Translations under genes and position numbers: made by a program
In this document: positions 31,344 to 42,621 of the stretch, in pieces
Numbering within the stretch: position 1 is the stretch's first letter
Layout: every line of letters starts with the position of its first letter
Source: Magnetococcales bacterium
GTDB taxonomy: Bacteria; Pseudomonadota; Magnetococcia; Magnetococcales; UBA8363
Length of the DNA: 42,672 nt
Direction of reading: 5' to 3'
Assembly: GCA_002753515.1 (NCBI GenBank)
Contig: PEAK01000034.1
Coordinates: forward strand, 1 to 42,672
Notes under the pieces: generated by a model
Told to the model about the DNA's origin: nothing
The model's database searches: none
The model's input: the letters and a program-made list of their open reading frames with translations, nothing else

Positions 31344-31544
31344 TTTGGCCTCCATGACAAGGATTGAAACGGTCACCCGGAGTAACTTGTCGGCCAAAGA
31401 AGCCTGGTGGGTTAATCGAAAAATGGTGACCCCCGTCTTGAATCAACACGGTTCGGGATGCATCGCATACACTTGCCAAGATGGATGGCAATCAGGTTAC
31501 TATTTGCGGAAGCGGGTTCGTGGGTTACTGAGGAGGATGGTTCG

Positions 31545-32489
31545 GTGTTGCGTAAAGCGGTGGAAAATTCTTTGTTGTTCCGGGATGTCGATCCTGACCT
31601 GTTGGTAGCGGCATTGACCCCCGGCGGGACACGAAAAATTGCCCCCGGAGAAGTCTTGATCGCCCCGGGACAAAACAACGATAAAGTTTATCTTCTGATA
31701 TCCGGGCACTTGTCCATCCATCTGGACCGGCTGGAAGATCCCCCGATCCGAATGGTCAAGCCTGGCGAAACCGTGGGAGAATTGTCCCTCATTGGTTCCA
31801 CCAGGACTTCGGCGTGGGTCGTAGGGGCCGAAGAAAGTGATGTTGTGGTTATCGAACAGGAAACGCTTTGGTCTTTGATCAACCGTGAAACCATGGTTGC
31901 CAGAAACCTGCTTCAGATCATTTCGGGTTGGATCGTCTCTGGCAACAAAAAGGCGATTGCCACCAACAGGCAGATTGAAGAATTGGAGGGCATCGCCCGG
32001 GTCGATAGTTTGACCGGCGTATACAATCGGCGTTCTTTTGATGAATCCTTTCACAGACTTCTGGCGCGTTGTCAGGTCAATGGATCGCCATTCTCCTTGA
32101 TTCTTCTAGATGTGGATCATTTTAAAAATTACAACGATACCCAGGGGCATCAAGCTGGGGATCGGGCTTTGATGGCTTTGGCCAATGTGATTACCGACAC
32201 CATCCGCCCCGGGGATCTGGCTGCCCGCTACGGAGGTGAAGAATTTGCGGTGATTCTTCCGGAAACGATCCCACAGGATGCGGTTAAAGTGGGTGAACGA
32301 ATGCGTTTATCAGTCCTGTCCTGTTCGATTGCACAATCGGATGGCACACCGTTACCGGGCATAACCATTTCCTTGGGGGTAGGTTGTTTGCGTGACGGGG
32401 CCACCGAGCAAACAATCCTCAAGGAAGCGGATGACAATTTATACCGGGCCAAAGAAGGCGGACGCAATCGGGTTTGTTTCACCGCTTGA
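31545..32489 (+). CDS. Diguanylate cyclase with an N-terminal cyclic-nucleotide-binding-type domain
   Basis: A 314-residue cytoplasmic signalling protein. Residues about 10-125 form a CNB-type domain (LLFRDVDPDLL, VYLLISGHLSIHL, KPGETVGELSLIGSTRTSAWV), the E-L-x-L-x-x-x-x-R-x-A phosphate cassette being partly kept. A short helix leads into a GGDEF domain (about 155-310) with DSLTGVYNRRSF, DVDHFKNYND and an intact GGEEF preceded five residues earlier by an RxxD inhibitory site, so an active, product-inhibited c-di-GMP synthase is likely. GAGGAGG precedes the GTG at 31545, which I prefer to the ATG at 31458. The 3' end overlaps the convergent tolC-like gene by 11 bases. Confidence 0.88.
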   Translation: MLRKAVENSLLFRDVDPDLLVAALTPGGTRKIAPGEVLIAPGQNNDKVYLLISGHLSIHLDRLEDPPIRMVKPGETVGELSLIGSTRTSAWVVGAEESDVVVIEQETLWSLINRETMVARNLLQIISGWIVSGNKKAIATNRQIEELEGIARVDSLTGVYNRRSFDESFHRLLARCQVNGSPFSLILLDVDHFKNYNDTQGHQAGDRALMALANVITDTIRPGDLAARYGGEEFAVILPETIPQDAVKVGERMRLSVLSCSIAQSDGTPLPGITISLGVGCLRDGATEQTILKEADDNLYRAKEGGRNRVCFTA

Positions 32490-34557
32490 TTTCCAACTCC
32501 GCAATCATGCCCTGAAGGATGATTTCGTTTGGCTCCAGGGGTCTGTCCTGGGTGGATGGTTTGATCCGGGATAGAAAGAGGGCGGTTTTGGATGGGGGAG
32601 ATGCCGTTGCTGTGACAAAGCCCCGTATCCTCTCCTGCCTTAGAAACACGGTCAACGCGGCTTGGGCCTCTGACCGGGTGCCAAAACTCCCGACCCATGC
32701 CAGTTGACGTGAGCGCCCTTGGGAATCACGCACTTCCCGGACAAACAGTTCATAACCCTTATGACTCAGTTGCTTGATAAGAGCCTCGGTGGACTCTTCC
32801 TGCATGAACTCCCCCACCTGAATGGCGAATGGCAACAGGACAAATGTGTCTTGTTCGTGATTCTCCATGAGTCCGATGTATTCCAGCAATGCTTTTTCGG
32901 TCAAGTCAGCCCATTCCTGCAGGGAAGGCTCGCCGGTTATTTCCATGTTATCCAAGGTGGCGGACCAGGGAGGTGGATCCTTCTGGAACTGCGTGGGAAA
33001 CAACAGGTCGGTGTTGGCCAGGATCAACGCATCGGCACCGAGTATATCGCCTTCGGTTATGGGTAGACGATGCTGCGGGGGCAGCGAGACGGCCACAAAC
33101 TGGCCATCCGCAGCAGGCAAGGGTGGCTTTTGCGCCACGGTTTGCAGTGCCGGCGGTGGGGAATCGCCACCTTTGTCACGTGTGGTTGCCTTGGTTTCCT
33201 GCGTTTGCGGTTGCTTATTGACCACAGAAAATCTGCCGGGTTGGGAATCAAATTTGGCCAGGGTGTCGGGCAGAACCCCCATGCTGGAAAGTAACTGGCA
33301 GATGGAAAGTTTTAGTTTAAACTGTTGATCCACCAAAGAACGCTTGGCGGTGAAAACATCATTCAGGGCATTCAGGGCATCCAGATGGGACCGGGTCCCG
33401 AGGGCGTGTTCTTCCTGGTAGCTGGCAGCCACATGCTGACGCACATCTAGATTTTTTTCCATGAGTTCGAGCAGTTCCTGGCCAGTCTTGACATCATGCC
33501 AGGCAGAAGTAACCTCTTTGGTGATTTGTCGACGAACCTGTTCCAGGTCTTCCTGGGATTTGTAGACCCGATTGGCCAATTCCCGGCGATGAAACCAGTC
33601 GCTGCCACCACGAAACAGGTTGTATTCCATCCGTACCATGGCCGAAGCGCTTTTGGTATAGCTGGGGGTGCCGGATGTGTTGGCATCGTCGCCCAGACTC
33701 ATTTCCAAATTGACCTTGGGCAGCAGGTTGGCATTGGACATTTTCTTTTCCGCTTCGACGGCATCAAGCTCCGCCTCGGACACGCTGACCGTGGGCGCAC
33801 GGTGTAACGCCTGATTGATAGCCTCCTCCAGGCTGCCAGGCAACAAGTCTGGGCGAATGTCGGGCACGACCAATGATTTCGGGGAACTTCCGGTCAATTC
33901 GGCAAACCGGGCGTTGGCATCATGCCATTTTTTTAAGGTTCCGGTGCGATCGGATCGTGCCATCACCAAGCGGCTGCGGGATTGGTTGGCATCAACTTCG
34001 GTACCAACACCAATCGTGACCATCTGCTCCGTTTTGGTGACGATTTCACCCAAGACGGCTATGGCCTCATCGTCAACAGCAAGCATTTTGGTTTGTTTCA
34101 GCGCTTCCAGGTAGATATCAATGGTATCGAGAGTGACCTGGTTAATGGTTTTTTGCAGCGTGGCATCGGATGAACGGGCTTGAGCCCTGGTTTGGTCCAC
34201 ACGATTCAGGGTACTCAAGCCATCGAACAACATTTGATTGACGGTCAGCCCCATTTCGCCGCGTTCCATGCCGATGCCACCCTGGCCACCAAAGCGAGTT
34301 GACGGACTTGAAGTCCATTCGCGACCTGTTCCAAGACGACCGTCAATTTTTGGCAAAAAGCCGGAAATGGCCTGGTTGACACGTTCGTTTGATGCTTTGT
34401 GATCGTTGAAAGCGGCCATTATTTTTGGATTGCTGGCCATGGCCTGACCCACGGCTTCCTGAAGGGTTTGCGAATTGGCCTCCATCAGGGAGCCCAAAGC
34501 AACCAACCCTAATGCCGCAGGGGCAAACGTCCGAAAGAGTGGGGAAACCGATTTCAC
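32479..34557 (-). CDS. TolC-family outer membrane secretion protein with C-terminal SPOR-like domain
   Basis: A 692-residue outer-membrane channel of the type I secretion system. A signal peptide (LFRTFAPAALGLVALGSLM) is followed by two TolC repeats (about residues 32-440) with TLQEAVGQAMASNPKI, EMGLTVNQMLFDG and GVLPD at the end of the core. The start is a GTG at 34557. Beyond the usual end (about 450) come a Pro/Gln-rich linker (about 455-490) and, at about 575-650, a SPOR-like module (FAIQVGEFMQEESTEALI, then RSRQLAWVGSFGTRSEAQAAL). SPOR domains bind glycan strands, so this could anchor the channel to peptidoglycan. It is divergent from the ABC/HlyD operon 254 bases away. Confidence 0.9.
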   Translation of the reverse strand: MKSVSPLFRTFAPAALGLVALGSLMEANSQTLQEAVGQAMASNPKIMAAFNDHKASNERVNQAISGFLPKIDGRLGTGREWTSSPSTRFGGQGGIGMERGEMGLTVNQMLFDGLSTLNRVDQTRAQARSSDATLQKTINQVTLDTIDIYLEALKQTKMLAVDDEAIAVLGEIVTKTEQMVTIGVGTEVDANQSRSRLVMARSDRTGTLKKWHDANARFAELTGSSPKSLVVPDIRPDLLPGSLEEAINQALHRAPTVSVSEAELDAVEAEKKMSNANLLPKVNLEMSLGDDANTSGTPSYTKSASAMVRMEYNLFRGGSDWFHRRELANRVYKSQEDLEQVRRQITKEVTSAWHDVKTGQELLELMEKNLDVRQHVAASYQEEHALGTRSHLDALNALNDVFTAKRSLVDQQFKLKLSICQLLSSMGVLPDTLAKFDSQPGRFSVVNKQPQTQETKATTRDKGGDSPPPALQTVAQKPPLPAADGQFVAVSLPPQHRLPITEGDILGADALILANTDLLFPTQFQKDPPPWSATLDNMEITGEPSLQEWADLTEKALLEYIGLMENHEQDTFVLLPFAIQVGEFMQEESTEALIKQLSHKGYELFVREVRDSQGRSRQLAWVGSFGTRSEAQAALTVFLRQERIRGFVTATASPPSKTALFLSRIKPSTQDRPLEPNEIILQGMIAELEIKR

Positions 34558-34811: not shown

Positions 34812-36506
34812 ATGACAGCCAAGGATAATTTCTTTGCCGACAAAGGTTGGCCGGCACGATTGACACCGTTTTCCATGGTTTCGGCGGTGATGGGGGATTT
34901 GTTTTTGGTCTCCTTCATGATCAATCTGCTGGGATTGGCTTTGCCGCTGACGCTGTTGCAGGTATATGACCGTATCCTGCAATTTCAGGCAGTCAGTACC
35001 TTAAGTTTTCTTATCCTTGGCGTGGCCATTGCGCTGATGCTGGAGGGGGTGCTGCGTATGGGGCGCTCTTATATTGGCGCCTGGCTGGGGGCACGGTTTG
35101 AACATTTGGCAGCGTGTAGCGCCATGGAACGACTGTTGACCACCAATTTGGCCGCCTTTGAACGAGACGGCTCCGGTGTGCATCTGGAACGGCTTAATGC
35201 CCTTAATATCTTGAAAGATTTCTATGCGGGACAGGCGGTGGGTGTCATTCTGGACATCCCTTTTGTCGCCATCTATCTGGGATTGATCTATCACCTGGCC
35301 CAAGGTTTGGTTCTGGTCCCGGTAATCGTGTTCATTCTCTTTGTAATATTTGTTCATCTCATTGGCGAGCAGTTGCATAAACTGGTCGGGGCGCGCATCG
35401 AGTCGGATGATCGCCGGATTAACTTTATCATCGAAATCCTCGGGGGTATTCACGCCATTAAATCCATGGCCATGGAAGCGATGATGCTCAGGCGCTACGA
35501 ACGTTTGAGCGAGGCTTGTGCCAAAGGGGCTGAAGAGGTGGGATTGCAGGGGGCTGATTCGTCCAACATCGGATCCTTTTTCGCACAGGTATCCATGGTG
35601 GGCGTGGTCGCTTTCGGGGCAATCCTCGTGGTGGAACACCAGTTGACCATCGGTGGACTCTCGGCATGTACCATGCTTTCGGGACGCGCCCTGCAACCGT
35701 TGCAACGGGCCGTGGGCATATGGACCCGCTTTCAGACCATTCGCCTGGCCAAGGATCGGGTGGCCAAAATATTCGAGCTGCCGATCGATGAAAGCATGGA
35801 CAAACCACCCATTCCCAAGGTGGTCGGTCGCTTGACGCTTGAGGATGCCTCTTTTGGTTTCGACGATAAAAAACCACCCTTGCTCCATGATTTGAACCTG
35901 GATGTGGCACCCGGGGAAATTATTGGCATCTCCGGAGACAACGGCAGCGGTAAAACCATTTTGCTGTGGTTGATGATGGGTGCCCTGCGGCCTACCAAGG
36001 GGCGGGTATTGATCGATGGTTACGATTTGGCAACACACAATGTTCGCAGCATCAAGGATTCGGTCTCCTACCTCCCCCAGGTCGGAATGTTGTTTCGCGG
36101 CAGCATCCTGGAAAATATTCACATGTTTCGCAATCAATATGTCAATGAGGCGATCCATGTTGCCAAACTCCTGGAATTGGAAGAATTTGTTTCCAAATTG
36201 CCCAAAGGTTTTGAAACCGTCATCGACGATGGTGCCGATGAATCGATCCCGCGGGGTATCAAACAACGCATTACCCTGGCGCGTTCCCTGGTGACCCATC
36301 CCAAAGTGGTGTTGTTTGACGAAGCCAATACCGGTGTGGATGGTCGCGGTGATGAAAATCTTAAAAATGTTTTGTTGGGGATGAAAAACCAAGCCACGAT
36401 CATTTTAATCAGCGCCAGACCATCGTTGCTCAGTCTGGCCAATCGTTCCTTTCTCTTGAAAAACGGAACCTTGATTCCCAAACCACCCCAGGGGATCAAA
36501 ACATGA
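34812..36506 (+). CDS. Type I secretion ABC transporter subunit 1, with degenerate signature and H-loop
   Basis: A 564-residue half-transporter: membrane part about 1-320 (six helices beginning FLVSFMINLLGLALPL), then an ATPase domain. Walker A GDNGSGKT (375-382), Q-loop SYLPQ and Walker B VVLFDEA are intact. The expected LSGGQ signature reads IPRGI (479-483), with Pro replacing the ATP-contacting Ser, and the H-loop His is Ala (SARPS, about 535). It lacks the C39-like domain found in its partner. It overlaps the next gene by four bases (ATGA), so the two are translationally coupled. A good AGGAG lies 14 bases before the ATG, a long spacing. Confidence 0.92.
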   Translation: MTAKDNFFADKGWPARLTPFSMVSAVMGDLFLVSFMINLLGLALPLTLLQVYDRILQFQAVSTLSFLILGVAIALMLEGVLRMGRSYIGAWLGARFEHLAACSAMERLLTTNLAAFERDGSGVHLERLNALNILKDFYAGQAVGVILDIPFVAIYLGLIYHLAQGLVLVPVIVFILFVIFVHLIGEQLHKLVGARIESDDRRINFIIEILGGIHAIKSMAMEAMMLRRYERLSEACAKGAEEVGLQGADSSNIGSFFAQVSMVGVVAFGAILVVEHQLTIGGLSACTMLSGRALQPLQRAVGIWTRFQTIRLAKDRVAKIFELPIDESMDKPPIPKVVGRLTLEDASFGFDDKKPPLLHDLNLDVAPGEIIGISGDNGSGKTILLWLMMGALRPTKGRVLIDGYDLATHNVRSIKDSVSYLPQVGMLFRGSILENIHMFRNQYVNEAIHVAKLLELEEFVSKLPKGFETVIDDGADESIPRGIKQRITLARSLVTHPKVVLFDEANTGVDGRGDENLKNVLLGMKNQATIILISARPSLLSLANRSFLLKNGTLIPKPPQGIKT

Positions 36507-38677
36507 GTGGTATGCCTTTGAGCCGGGATGAGGAACTGGAAGCCATCGCCCGCAACCTGCGTCCCCAGGAGGGGATTGGCGGATTGTTGGCCGAATTCGG
36601 TCAGATGTCTGATTTTGGTGCGTGTATCGTACCGTTGCTGATGGCTATCGGCTATCGTGGTGATTTTCGCCATGTCGCCGAATCCCTGCCGCATTTCGCC
36701 GAAACATTGGATCTGACCGGCTTTCGCAACATGATGGCCAACATGTCCTATATCAGCCGCGAAGGGCGGATGAACATGGCCAGGCTGGATCCCAGGCTGC
36801 TCCCCTGTCTGTTTGTGCCCGACAAGGGGGGGGTGATGGTTCTCTTGAAACGAAGCAAAGATTCAACCATCTGTTATAATGGTGAATTGCGGCGCGTCGA
36901 AAGGTTGGCTCTGCATTCGATTCCCGGACGGGCTTTCTTCTTCAGCCCCCTGGATTTGGAACAATGGGAATCAACGCAAAACCGATTGGGATGGTTTCGC
37001 ATGATTGCCGAACGGTTTCGCACCATTATTTCCCTGATCCTGTTGGTTACGTTTGCCATTACCTTGTTGCAAATCGGTACCCCGTTGTTTGTCCGCTCGG
37101 TATACGACAAGGTGGTGGGGAGTCGTTCCATTGCGACGCTTGTCAATTTGCTGGTGGGTATTGGCATCGTGATCCTGTTCGACTGGCTGTTGCGTAAAAC
37201 CCGAACCCGCATGCTCATGTATGTGGGGGCACGCTTCGATGCCATTGTCAGCAACGCCATTTTCATGCGCATTCTTTCCCTCACCCCCAGTTTTACCGAA
37301 CGGGCACCGGTGGGCGCCCAGGTATCCAGAATCAAAGACTTTGACACGGTTCGGGAATTCTTTACTGGGCCGTTAATGATGGTTTTCTTTGAAATGCCTT
37401 TTACCGTGGTTTTTTTCGTAGCCATCGCCATCCTGGGCGGTAACCTGGCCCTGATCCCCATGATTACCATGGTATTGTTTGTCGCCTTGTGGGCCATCAT
37501 GATGCCACTGGTTGCCAATCATGAAGCCAAAAGTCGGCGCATGTCCGCAAAAAAACAGGAATTTGCCGTCGAAGCATTGGGAAAGATACGAGGTATCAAA
37601 TATGCCGGTATCGAATCCATTTGGCTGGAACGGTATCGGGAATTGGCGGCCACAACCGCCATGACCAATTTCAGAACGGCCATGATCAATGCCGCGGTCG
37701 CAACAATTTCGCATGTGTTCATCGTCGGTTCCGGGGTGGCTACAATCGCCGCCGGGGTCTTCAAGGTGTTGGACGGCACCATGACAACAGGTGACCTGGT
37801 TGCCACCATGATATTGGTTTGGCGGGTGTTGGGACCGATGCAGAGCGCCTTTATGGCCATGACCCGGTTGGAACAGGTGCAAAGCTCCATCAAGCAAATC
37901 AATGGCCTGATGAATGTGATCCCGGAACGAAAGGAACATGCCCCGATCGAACCGATCAAAAGCTTACAAGGCTATGTCTCATTTGTCCGGGTCAGCATCC
38001 GCTATAATCCCGATTCGGAACCCTCACTCATGGGTGTTTCCTTTGACATCAATCCGGGTACCATCGTCGCTGTCATAGGCCGCAACGGCTCCGGAAAGTC
38101 CACCGTGGTCAAATTGATCGCCGGACTCTACCAACCACAGGCGGGCAGCATTCGCATTGACGGCCAGGATATCCGTCAGATGAACATGATCGAACTCAGG
38201 CATGCGATTGCCTACGTGCCACAACGCTGTTCGTTATTCTACGGAACCATCAAACAAAATTTGCTTCTGGCGCACGCCACGGCTTCGGATGAGGATGTGG
38301 AGCGCGCTTGTCGCATGGCGGGGGTCTATGATGAAATCATGGCATTACCACAAAAATTTTGGACTCGCGTCGGCGATCAAAAGGCTACGAGTCTGCCGTC
38401 GAGCATGATTCAAAAGATATCTTTGGCACGGGCCTATCTGAAACCATCGAAAATCATGTTGTTTGATGAGCCCGCCAACACCCTCGACTGGGAAGGGGAT
38501 CAAATGTTTATGAAAGTTGCCCGTTCGTTGCGAGGGCAGCGTACCATGTTTATCGTCACCCATCGCCCAAGTCATATCCGCATGGCGGACCAAATTTTGT
38601 TTCTGGATCATGGTTATCTGAAGTTGGCGGGATCGCCCGAGCAGATTCTTTCCAAAATTCCTCACGATTTGGTGTGA
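36503..38677 (+). CDS. Type I secretion ABC transporter subunit 2, with C39-like domain and degenerate signature
   Basis: A 724-residue exporter subunit. An N-terminal C39-peptidase-like domain (about 20-150) has a Cys at 41 near the usual nucleophile position, but no His in the GGVMVLL strand where active C39 peptidases have HFVV, so it is probably a substrate-binding rather than a cutting domain. Six membrane helices follow (about 175-440). The ATPase domain has Walker A GRNGSGKS (526-533), Walker B IMLFDEPANTLD and an intact H-loop VTHRPS, but the signature reads LPSSM (631-635), again with Pro in place of Ser. The start overlaps the first ABC gene by four bases and HlyD follows after ten bases. 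Confidence 0.92.
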   Translation: MSGMPLSRDEELEAIARNLRPQEGIGGLLAEFGQMSDFGACIVPLLMAIGYRGDFRHVAESLPHFAETLDLTGFRNMMANMSYISREGRMNMARLDPRLLPCLFVPDKGGVMVLLKRSKDSTICYNGELRRVERLALHSIPGRAFFFSPLDLEQWESTQNRLGWFRMIAERFRTIISLILLVTFAITLLQIGTPLFVRSVYDKVVGSRSIATLVNLLVGIGIVILFDWLLRKTRTRMLMYVGARFDAIVSNAIFMRILSLTPSFTERAPVGAQVSRIKDFDTVREFFTGPLMMVFFEMPFTVVFFVAIAILGGNLALIPMITMVLFVALWAIMMPLVANHEAKSRRMSAKKQEFAVEALGKIRGIKYAGIESIWLERYRELAATTAMTNFRTAMINAAVATISHVFIVGSGVATIAAGVFKVLDGTMTTGDLVATMILVWRVLGPMQSAFMAMTRLEQVQSSIKQINGLMNVIPERKEHAPIEPIKSLQGYVSFVRVSIRYNPDSEPSLMGVSFDINPGTIVAVIGRNGSGKSTVVKLIAGLYQPQAGSIRIDGQDIRQMNMIELRHAIAYVPQRCSLFYGTIKQNLLLAHATASDEDVERACRMAGVYDEIMALPQKFWTRVGDQKATSLPSSMIQKISLARAYLKPSKIMLFDEPANTLDWEGDQMFMKVARSLRGQRTMFIVTHRPSHIRMADQILFLDHGYLKLAGSPEQILSKIPHDLV

Positions 38678-38687
38678 GTCCAATTTC

Positions 38688-41036
38688 ATGAACGAATCCA
38701 GCCAATCTGAATCGGGAGTTGCAGAAAGGGACAGGACGCCTCAGGGAAAGGAGCCGTCAGCAAAATCGGGTTTGACGATTCGCCTGGGTCAGGGTAAAGC
38801 GGTTACATCTCCCAAAAAGACGAACGTGGTCATAGCCCCCCCTCAGAAAGTCGACAGGCCATTGGAAAGTGCCCCGGTACCGGATTCGGATGCGGTTGAG
38901 CCCCTCCCCGACCTTCAAGTTGGTAACCTGAAGTCCGGTGAAAGGGGCGCATCGAAACAACCGGCGCCGCTGACGATTGTACAAAAGCCCGCAGCGTCCC
39001 CGCAGCTTGACTCCCCTGCTGGACAAACCGAAGCATCGGTAGCATCCAAACCGGCTGCAACCATGGTCATGAAAATTGGCAATGCTGCCAAGGTGCCCGC
39101 TTCCGCAGTTGCGGATAAGCCTGCGGTTGATGAAGTACCCCGGAAGCAAATTGAGGTATCGGCTGCCCCCAAGCCGGCTGCAACCATGGTCATGAAAGTG
39201 GGCAATGGGCGCAAGGAACAGGTTTCCGAGGGTGCTGACAAAGCGGTAACCAATGCCGTGGCCCTGAATCAAATCGAGGTATCGGCTGCCCCCAAGCCGG
39301 CTGCAACCATGGTCATGAAAGTGGGTAGTGCGGGCAAGGAACAGGTTTCCGAGGGTGCTGACAAAACGGTAACCAATGCCGTGGCCCTGAAAATTGCCCC
39401 GAGTAGCCCCGCTGCAACAGGTATCGGCTTAGCAGCACCACGGACGCAAGTAGCTGGCCCGCCTGTGATCCCCCAAGCATTGAAACCGCTGCAAACAGCA
39501 ACCAGGGAACTGCAACCAGGGATTGTTCCGACCGCACCCAAAGCACAACAAAACACGCCCGGTGTGGCTGGAACCGTACCAGTGCCACAGCAAGGGGTAC
39601 CGACGGCACCGACCGATACGAAAAAAGAGACCAAGCCCGATTGGCTGGTACTGACCCGCCAGGAACCGGAATCGCTCCATGCCCTGTTGGAACCAGACCC
39701 TGAGGAGATTGCCCGGCTGAAACAGGGTTACAAACAGCATCGTTTCATGGCTCAGTCGGTCATTCTGGAGGAGTCTGGACTTTCGAACCAGGTCAGATCA
39801 GCCTTGTTGGCTGTCTCCTTGGTGATTGTCTCATTTATTGTCTGGGCCTCGTTTTCCACCATGGATGAAATAACGTCCACCCAGGGCCAAGTGATGCCTG
39901 CGAGTCCGGCGCAACTCATTCAGCACCTGGAAGGGGGGATCGTTCGGGAAATATTTGTGGTGCAAGGACAGGTGATCAAGGAAGGGGCATTGATTGTCCG
40001 TTTGGACAAGGAGGGGGTTTTGGCCGACTTGAACCAACTTCGAGCCAAAGGGGCTTCGTTACGCACACAGGAAATTCGTATCCGGGCCTTTCTGGCCGAT
40101 GCCGAGGCTGATTTTTCAACCATACCGGCGGAATACCAATCCTTTGTTCTGGGACAGACGCGTTTGTTGCAAGCGCAGCGATCCGCTCTGAATGGCGAGC
40201 GGCAGGTGTTGGAATCCCGTATAGCCAAATCCGGTGCCCGCATTACCAATTTGCAGGAGCAGATTAAAAGCGCCCGTGGACAAAAACAATCCCTGGCCCA
40301 ACAGCTCGCTATGAAAAGTCAGGGAGTCGAGAAGGGCGTTGTTTCCCGTTTGGTGTATCTGGACAGCAGGCGGGATATGGACCGGGTTGAGGCGGACGAA
40401 GTGCGTATCCAGGGGGATTTGGCGACCGCAAAAAAAGAAAAAGATGAAGCCATGGGTGAGCTGGAGGAAGTGGTACGCAAGGCTCGGGAAACCAATTTAC
40501 GGGAATTGGGAACCGTGACCACCGATTTGGCGCAAACGGAGGAACAGATTCGCCGTCTGAGTGATCGGGTCAAACGTTTGGAAGTCCGATCGCCGGTCTG
40601 GGGGGTGGTGAATAATCTTCAGGTGGAAACCGTGGGTGGGGTCTTGGCCCCTGGAGCTTTGATTGCTGAGATCATCCCCATGGATTCGACCCGACGGGTG
40701 GAAACCCACATCAGTCCCAGGGATATCGGCCATGTTGCCGTGGGTCAAAGTGTAACCGTCAAAGTGACCACCTATGATTTCGCCCGTTATGGCGGCATCG
40801 GTGGTATCCTCGAATCGGTATCACCCACGACGTATAAGGATCCGCAGGAGAAGGAACCCTTTTATAAAGGCATCATCCGCTTGGAAAAACCTTATGTGGG
40901 GATGAATGAAAAATTAAACCCGGTATTGCCGGGGATGACGGTTCAGGCCGACATTGATACCGGCTCTAAAACATTGATGGAATACATGCTCAAGCCGATC
41001 TATGCCTCGGTGAACAAAGCGTTCCGGGAAAGATAG
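38688..41036 (+). CDS. HlyD-family type I secretion adaptor with a long repeat-bearing cytoplasmic extension
   Basis: A 782-residue membrane fusion protein, nearly twice the usual 430-480 residues. The C-terminal 400 residues are a standard HlyD adaptor: one membrane helix (about 371-390, LLAVSLVIVSFIVWASF), a lipoyl half-motif (LIQHLEGGIVREIFVVQGQ), a long alpha-hairpin (about 460-620) and the beta barrel with VRSPVWGVVNNLQV. The N-terminal 370 residues are cytoplasmic, Pro/Ala/Lys-rich and predicted disordered. They carry three 41-residue repeats with the core KPAATMVMKxG (from about residue 120), and a related SGLTIRLGQGK stands at about 26-36. Such an extension could recruit substrate or regulators to the ABC complex. 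The ABC2 stop is ten bases upstream. Confidence 0.92.
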   Translation: MNESSQSESGVAERDRTPQGKEPSAKSGLTIRLGQGKAVTSPKKTNVVIAPPQKVDRPLESAPVPDSDAVEPLPDLQVGNLKSGERGASKQPAPLTIVQKPAASPQLDSPAGQTEASVASKPAATMVMKIGNAAKVPASAVADKPAVDEVPRKQIEVSAAPKPAATMVMKVGNGRKEQVSEGADKAVTNAVALNQIEVSAAPKPAATMVMKVGSAGKEQVSEGADKTVTNAVALKIAPSSPAATGIGLAAPRTQVAGPPVIPQALKPLQTATRELQPGIVPTAPKAQQNTPGVAGTVPVPQQGVPTAPTDTKKETKPDWLVLTRQEPESLHALLEPDPEEIARLKQGYKQHRFMAQSVILEESGLSNQVRSALLAVSLVIVSFIVWASFSTMDEITSTQGQVMPASPAQLIQHLEGGIVREIFVVQGQVIKEGALIVRLDKEGVLADLNQLRAKGASLRTQEIRIRAFLADAEADFSTIPAEYQSFVLGQTRLLQAQRSALNGERQVLESRIAKSGARITNLQEQIKSARGQKQSLAQQLAMKSQGVEKGVVSRLVYLDSRRDMDRVEADEVRIQGDLATAKKEKDEAMGELEEVVRKARETNLRELGTVTTDLAQTEEQIRRLSDRVKRLEVRSPVWGVVNNLQVETVGGVLAPGALIAEIIPMDSTRRVETHISPRDIGHVAVGQSVTVKVTTYDFARYGGIGGILESVSPTTYKDPQEKEPFYKGIIRLEKPYVGMNEKLNPVLPGMTVQADIDTGSKTLMEYMLKPIYASVNKAFRER
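39020..39395 (+). repeat. 123-bp tandem repeats in the HlyD extension
   Basis: The segment around CCGGCTGCAACCATGGTCAT recurs at 39051, 39174 and 39297, exactly 123 bp (41 codons) apart. Copies two and three are almost identical over the whole unit and copy one is diverged, so one duplication is recent. Unit number could vary between strains without loss of frame. Confidence 0.88.
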
Positions 41037-41379: not shown

Positions 41380-42621
41380 TTATTCTTTTTGCAATTTAAC
41401 ATCTACAATCTGGTCAACATGACCAAGATTTACCCATTGACGAATCGAATGAAATCCGGGCAGGCTGACTTCAATGTGATAACTTCCCTGAGGCAATTTC
41501 ATGCCTGGTTGATACCTGGGACTGATGTTGAGAATGCGTACCCGGGCTTCCTTGGGACTGGTCACAACCGTCAGACTGAAAAGATTGCCGGAGTTTCCCA
41601 TATCCACGGATTGGGGGGATGGCGGCGTTTGCAAAGGTTGCGGTTCTTGAAGGTTGGCCGCAGGTATCGGGGCTGGATGGACCGGCGTGGTCTCCGTGAC
41701 ATTCCGATCGCGGACTGATTGCCAAGATAGGCAGAATAAAAATGCCAGTAGCGAACTGACCAACAGGATGAGAATCAGGCAGCGTTTTTTCCGACCCAGC
41801 TTTATAAGGAATTGATGGGGTGACCGCGTTTGTGCCGCCTGTGCCTGCGTAGTGGCAAACTGGGTCTCCTCCGGCGCACGCAAATACTGCAACCACTCCG
41901 GGATATCTTTCGGACGCTGTTCGTAATCGATTGCCAATGCGCGATCAATGGCTGTCAGCAGGCGGGGAGAATAGCGTCCAGACAATGTTTTTGCCACTGA
42001 AACCATGGGGTCCGGACGATTGGCCATCAGTTCCTTGATTCTTTCCCCCGATGACGGCGGGGAGGAATTGGTCAGCATCTGAAACAATACCGTTCCCAAT
42101 GCATAGATATCGGTCCAGGGACCTTGATCCCCATCTTCCATAAACTGTTCCGGGGGGGCGTTGGCCGGTGTGGCGATGATCGTCATCTTTGCATCCCGCC
42201 CCTGATGCAGCATGAATTGCCGCGCCGCCCCGAAATCAAGCAATACCGGCTTACCATTGGAACGGATGATGATATTGGCCGGCTTGATGTCGCGATGAAT
42301 GATTTTTGCTGCGTGCATCAGATGGAGACCAGAACACAGATGTCGTATGAATCGAAATATCTCTTCGTTTGTAAAGCGCACCCCACGAAAAAAAGATTTA
42401 TGTTGTTTAATATACTTGGTCAAGTTGACGCCAATGACATACTCCATGACCAGATAGGCGGTCCCATTCGCCTTGAAAAAATGAAAAACGGACACAATGG
42501 AAGGGTGCTTGAAGTTGACCAATGTCTGACCTTCCAAGGCAAACCGCTCCATGCCAGCACCGGTCCGGAACTGTAGGAACACCACCGGCTTGAAAATGCG
42601 AGTGGGATCTTCTTCTCTTCT
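41380..42621 (-). CDS. Ser/Thr protein kinase with PEGA domain, 5' end missing
   Basis: A bacterial (PknB-like) Ser/Thr kinase read leftwards from the contig end. The catalytic core keeps HRDIKPANIII, LDFGAAR, APPEQF and GPWTDIYALGTVLF. The helix alpha-C region (MERFALEGQTLVNFKHPS) is present, but the glycine-rich loop and the VAIK lysine would lie beyond the window. A membrane helix (CLILILLVSSLLAFLF) follows the kinase domain and a PEGA domain ends the protein (VVTSPKEARVRIL, then YHIEVSLPGF), so the C-terminus is probably periplasmic. The frame opens after a stop at 42622-42624 inside the terminal repeat, so the true upstream coding sequence is either displaced or lost. No phosphatase gene is adjacent. 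Confidence 0.85.
   Translation of the reverse strand, partial: RREEDPTRIFKPVVFLQFRTGAGMERFALEGQTLVNFKHPSIVSVFHFFKANGTAYLVMEYVIGVNLTKYIKQHKSFFRGVRFTNEEIFRFIRHLCSGLHLMHAAKIIHRDIKPANIIIRSNGKPVLLDFGAARQFMLHQGRDAKMTIIATPANAPPEQFMEDGDQGPWTDIYALGTVLFQMLTNSSPPSSGERIKELMANRPDPMVSVAKTLSGRYSPRLLTAIDRALAIDYEQRPKDIPEWLQYLRAPEETQFATTQAQAAQTRSPHQFLIKLGRKKRCLILILLVSSLLAFLFCLSWQSVRDRNVTETTPVHPAPIPAANLQEPQPLQTPPSPQSVDMGNSGNLFSLTVVTSPKEARVRILNISPRYQPGMKLPQGSYHIEVSLPGFHSIRQWVNLGHVDQIVDVKLQKE

Follow-up and report, generated by a model that had tools for sequence, protein, structure and literature searches.

Paired type I secretion ABC subunits with altered signature motifs in both nucleotide-binding domains are conserved in Magnetococcales and related bacteria

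The stretch of DNA analyzed here (the window; positions 1 to 42,672 of contig PEAK01000034.1 from a Magnetococcales genome) carries two adjoining genes for ABC exporter subunits, ABC1 and ABC2, and in both proteins the LSGGQ signature of the nucleotide-binding domain (NBD) is replaced by another motif. A homologue search with alignment of the signature and H-loop regions showed that dozens of related pumps retain these departures, and judged from these sequences the pair looks like a genuine, conserved form of a known kind of pump and not a broken one. The explanation that best covers the whole of the data, to which we give a probability of about 0.6, is that ABC1 and ABC2 would form a heterodimeric type I secretion system (T1SS) pump, in which ATP would be hydrolyzed at one of two sites (site 2, defined below) and whose cargo would be giant adhesins.

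The coordinates of the genes and motifs are given in Table 1. ABC1 and ABC2 each matched PF00664 and PF00005 above the gathering scores, and the start codon of ABC2 lies over the stop codon of ABC1 in a 4-base overlap (ATGA). All the components of a type I system were found, namely an ABC exporter with transmembrane domain (TMD) and NBD, a HlyD adaptor and a TolC channel. The adjoining HlyD and TolC genes bear out the proposal of a first-pass annotation, made from the DNA letters, that these are paired type I secretion ABC subunits, and the gene neighborhood and the co-occurrence described below suggest that the pair may export a protein across both membranes in one step.

Table 1. Genes and NBD motifs of the operon, in window coordinates
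Feature	Position	Strand	Description	Model match
TolC-family outer-membrane channel	32479..34557	-	divergent from ABC1	TIGR01844 280 bits, cut-off 225.15
ABC1	34812..36506	+	564 aa; TMD + NBD half-transporter without C39-like domain	PF00664, PF00005
ABC1 Walker A GDNGSGKT	35934..35957	+		
ABC1 signature position IPRGI	36246..36260	+	family consensus [IL]PxG[IVL]; expected to face ABC2 Walker A at site 2	
ABC1 Walker B VVLFDE	36306..36323	+		
ABC1 H-loop position, Ala535 for His	36414..36416	+		
ABC2	36503..38677	+	724 aa; C39-like domain + TMD + NBD	
ABC2 Walker A GRNGSGKS	38078..38101	+		
ABC2 signature position LPSSM	38393..38407	+	family conservation absent; site 1	
ABC2 Walker B IMLFDE	38453..38470	+		
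ABC2 H-loop His687, kept	38561..38563	+		
HlyD-family adaptor	38688..41036	+	782 aa, long N-terminal extension	TIGR01843 375 bits, cut-off 208.65

The genes around the pair were also analyzed. The TolC-family channel has a C-terminal SPOR domain (PF05036). The N-terminal extension of the HlyD adaptor is about 365 residues long (38688-39790) and contains, at 39139-39391, a tandem repeat of 123 bp (41 aa) with MVMK[IV]G; long HlyD N-termini were also present in several relatives. A gene for a cyclic-nucleotide-binding and GGDEF protein (31458-32489) adjoins the TolC gene, and at a few other loci a clustered relative lies close to the operon; control of adhesin export by c-di-GMP is possible. Close to the end of the contig, a Ser/Thr protein kinase gene (41380-42585) adjoins the operon. 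The kinase was rejected as a regulator of the pump, since the flanks of the other loci yielded no homologue, which puts it outside the conserved unit. A promoter and terminator scan was uninformative.

The positions of the altered motifs were determined by alignment. Residue by residue, IPRGI of ABC1 and LPSSM of ABC2 were in register with LSGGQ of HlyB (7sgr) and ABCB4 (7niu), and in a MAFFT alignment of 164 NBDs both motifs fell in the LSGGQ columns. The register was the same in a larger alignment that included 19 non-redundant comparison NBDs (one of a short ABC ATPase, the others of further T1SS, PrtD-like and MsbA-like exporters). A conventional LSGGQ elsewhere in the domain was the counter-evidence that the first-pass annotation had named beforehand; none was found in the NBD of ABC1 or of ABC2, and its observation that both signatures are replaced stands. 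The alignments also agreed with its reading of Ala in place of the H-loop His in the first NBD, and of intact Walker A and Walker B motifs in both. AlphaFold2 models of the single chains (mean pLDDT 81.9 for ABC1 and 84.6 for ABC2) had the ABC exporter fold, and the closest solved fold to both subunits was HlyB 8dck; ABC2 aligned with 8dck_A over 691 columns, the C39-like domain included, with a TMq of 0.80. Foldseek matches many ABC exporters, so that these matches inform on fold and not on mechanism. In the ABC1 model, the signature helix begins inside the altered motif.

Besides the window's own pair, relatives among named records were found in Magnetococcales, Rhodospira/Roseospira, Magnetospirillum-type and Terasakiella genomes. 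At the chosen threshold 61 of 120 genomes matched, a count that takes in ABC2-type and ordinary T1SS matches in the wider phylum. In a profile search over 398 genomes of the phylum, the ABC1 matches of genomes G246, G356, G360, G393, G326 and G169, all outside the order, scored clearly above ordinary transporters, and G375, also outside it, gave a weaker match; the motifs of these matches were non-canonical as well. Position 2 of the ABC1 signature was Pro in 70 of 77 non-redundant NBDs, position 4 was Gly in 75/77 and the residue after the signature was Gln in 75/77, while the H-loop His was present in only 30/77. In 54 ABC2 NBDs, position 2 was Ser (22), Pro (21), Ala (5) or Thr (4), position 4 was Ser in 30 and Gly in 16, and the H-loop His was present in 46. 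The comparison NBDs had Ser at position 2 in 18/19 and Gly at position 4 in 19/19. The residues counted as invariant were the signature Gly and D-loop Asp of ABC1, and the Walker A, Q-loop, Walker B and His of ABC2. Since [IL]PxG[IVL] is among the best-conserved ABC1 motifs, it is probably in use as a signature. In a quick tree, ABC1 and ABC2 each occupied one side of a branch, with supports of 95 and 100. In the divergent loci L115, L116 and L120-L122, an extra gene of about 450-590 aa lies between ABC1 and ABC2, and ABC1 has Lys at the Walker B Glu together with a changed Walker A.

Each ATP site of an ABC dimer uses the signature of the opposite subunit. For a dimer of ABC1 and ABC2, site 1 was defined as the Walker A/B and H-loop of ABC1 with the signature of ABC2, and site 2 as the Walker A/B and H-loop of ABC2 with the signature and D-loop of ABC1. 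Six features per site were scored over a non-redundant set of 72 pairs, drawn from Magnetococcales and further Pseudomonadota. A fully canonical site was found in 0/72 pairs, at either site, in agreement with the earlier statement that neither site would be canonical in any pairing. The mean score, of 6, was 4.8 for site 2 and 3.6 for site 1. Site 2 scored above site 1 in 48 pairs, equal to it in 22 and below it in 2; the rows are related, so that these counts are not independent tests and the Wilcoxon value is descriptive. Site 2 was usually without only the signature Ser, now Pro (Ser gone in 69/72), and it kept the ABC1 signature Gly (70/72) and D-loop Asp (72/72) and the ABC2 Walker A Lys (68/72), Walker B Glu (68/72) and His (63/72). 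The first-pass statement that both subunits lack a usable signature was thus correct in that both are altered, but too strong, because site 2 usually misses only the Ser. In some clades the ABC1 Walker A was shortened and the ABC2 D-loop Asp was Gly, and in others the ABC1 Walker B Glu was Lys. Through these clade-specific changes the losses gather on site 1, which, judged by its motifs, is decaying progressively across the family. Pro is not strictly required, since ABC1 rows L111-L114 have LSGGV; in L111-L113, the LSGGV rows with a paired ABC2, the ABC2 Walker A Lys is Arg. In a few divergent pairs, e.g. L103 and L201, features were lost at both sites.

Several other explanations of the pair were weighed. 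The chance that sequencing error, misalignment or a pseudogene accounts for the motifs is negligible. The first-pass annotation had allowed that the substitutions might be errors unique to this contig; the same changes recur in relatives, and independent genomes share the residues with silent codon changes and open frames. Within the genus the IPRGI and LPSSM codons vary at silent positions with the residues nearly fixed, which together with the alignments rules out error and misalignment, and dN/dS was 0.04-0.07 (NG86; dS was 1.3-1.8, near saturation). As a rule, type I secretion ABC proteins form homodimers, a background that favors separate ABC1 and ABC2 homodimers, or the use of only one subunit. 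However, ABC1 and ABC2 are fused into one ORF of about 1330 aa in about 20 loci (some 17 of them in Magnetococcales, the rest being L199 and the alphaproteobacterial records L074, L075 and L077), the two genes overlap, and the subunits are co-inherited, both under purifying selection; the homodimer explanation, which is very improbable, was rejected on the fused homologues. The fusions, of which Paramagnetospirillum has a natural example, also support the earlier proposal of two different subunits in one transporter, and they are, as a feature of sequence, the strongest evidence for ABC1-ABC2 pairing. Because each subunit forms one clade and natural fusions occur, ABC1 and ABC2 very probably form a heterodimer.

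For such a heterodimer, the motifs point to an asymmetric T1SS pump as the likeliest arrangement, with one working site that uses [IL]PxG[IVL] and one site that mainly binds ATP. ABC1 and ABC2 would be an obligate heterodimeric inner-membrane pump acting with the adjoining HlyD adaptor and TolC channel. Site 2 would be the sole hydrolyzing site, with a lineage-specific signature that has Pro for the ATP-contacting Ser, and, by analogy with TmrAB, ATP would be held at site 1. It is also conceivable that both sites are catalytically near-dead and that the pair is an ATP- or ligand-gated channel or regulated pump, the opening of which is controlled by ATP binding. The lack of a canonical site in all pairs, the loss of the site 2 Ser in 69 of them and the loss of the ABC1 Walker A or Walker B Glu in some clades are in line with such a channel, which is close to the slow hydrolysis suggested by the first-pass annotation, a suggestion that fits the sequences. 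However, retention of the ABC2 Lys, Glu and His and of the ABC1 Gly and Asp is not obviously needed for binding only, the surroundings of the loci yielded no gate, no ligand domain and no conserved regulator, and we regard near-dead sites as unlikely. Rather unlikely, too, is that [IL]PxG[IVL] is a tolerated spelling of the signature, with site 2 working at ordinary rates and the change having no mechanistic meaning. The retained Gly at position 4 and following Gln, the LSGGV of some ABC1 proteins and the low dN/dS of a working gene agree with a tolerated spelling, but Pro is fixed in 70/77 ABC1 NBDs where 18/19 comparison NBDs have Ser, which indicates that the change was selected or deeply inherited. 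In the asymmetric pump that we prefer, the loss of Ser may slow turnover, so that the channel would stay engaged while very long chains pass. The fuller proposal, of a family without a canonical signature in which the Pro signature slows hydrolysis and the channel, kept ATP-bound, has time to pass adhesins that reach about 7,000 residues, is tentative and on balance doubtful.

The probable cargo of the pump was investigated in the flanks of the loci and in whole genomes. At 16 loci a large repeat-type ORF was present inside the fetched flanks, adjoining the operon in most; at 65 others, many with flanks that were short or ran into a contig end, none was flagged. Genome G018 has a 7,035-aa ORF beside the pair, with RQNLDDMTVLQ near its start and the end ITLEDGTQIDFDGIDQIIW. 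In the window's own genome, the piecewise search turned up no giant next to the pair; contig C25 of that genome encodes a 1,756-aa protein with RTX repeats, the start and end of which are like those of the G018 giant, and other HlyD-type adaptors are encoded on contigs C46, C121 and C42. C25-like giants were found in 32/32 genomes of the order with a main-clade pair vs 2/16 without one (Fisher P = 2e-10, with a repeat-rich query, main-clade membership assigned by hand and a P value inflated by shared ancestry). This co-occurrence held inside family f5 and, with one exception, inside family f7. Pfam and NCBIfam gave weak matches only on the repeat giants. These data suggest that the cargo is probably giant repeat adhesins with an LDDMT-type motif at the N-terminus and an ITLEDG-type C-terminal end. 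In genome G000, a 19,427-codon open frame on contig C115 (L161, L162) shows an LEPR-type N-terminus and RTX repeats, and another, on contig C90 (L163), is 7,672 codons long. The giants on both contigs have LEPR-type starts and no LDDMT near the start, and they were not assigned as cargo.

The pair was also compared with known systems. The best NCBIfam model for both subunits was the LapB/LssB type (TIGR03375), with 393.4 bits for ABC1 and 492.5 bits for ABC2, below the cut-off of 693.1. As in LapB/LssB-type systems, giant adhesin cargo is likely, and ABC2 has the LssB-type C39-like domain, which ABC1 lacks; unlike in those systems, there are two kinds of subunit, not one, and LSGGQ is missing from both. 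In the same genus, an LssB-type exporter encoded by one gene at loci L203-L205 (L203 scored 782 bits) has LSRGE as its signature, with Gln in place of the H-loop His and Ser in place of the D-loop Asp. The models of the NHLM bacteriocin export pair (TIGR03796/TIGR03797) gave 195-278 bits, below their cut-offs of 853.3 and 709.4. HlyB, the alpha-haemolysin exporter (7sgr, 8dck), is nearest in fold and works with a HlyD, but it has one kind of subunit with LSGGQ.

The closest described organization is that of the MARTX systems, in which two ABC proteins, RtxB and RtxE, both apparently necessary, work with one HlyD-type adaptor, RtxD, and a TolC (PMC3034196). This likeness is one of gene organization and extends to the very large cargo. 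The TolC of MARTX is encoded outside the rtx loci, whereas here it is divergent and next to ABC1, and no rtxHCA-like genes or RtxA were found beside the pair among the window ORFs examined. Among asymmetric exporters, TM287/288 and TAP keep one canonical ATP site. TmrAB also keeps one; there the power stroke comes from ATP binding, and the pump is reset when ATP is hydrolyzed at the canonical site (PMC7205462). Like these three exporters, the pair has one more degenerate site (site 1) and one better-kept site, and the folds match; unlike in them, the signature of the better-kept site is altered as well, and none of the 72 pairs has a fully canonical site.

In the openly available literature, of which our coverage was incomplete, we found no account of a type I secretion family in which both signatures are changed, which is weak evidence of novelty, and a pump variant of this kind looks undescribed. 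To our knowledge, the asymmetric ABC exporters examined to date have retained one canonical ATP site. A selected, long-lived family without such a site would test the role of the signature serine, and which step, ATP binding or hydrolysis, is limiting for export. With its one-chain fusions and probable giant cargo, the family would also offer a practical system in which to study the transport of very long proteins by type I secretion.
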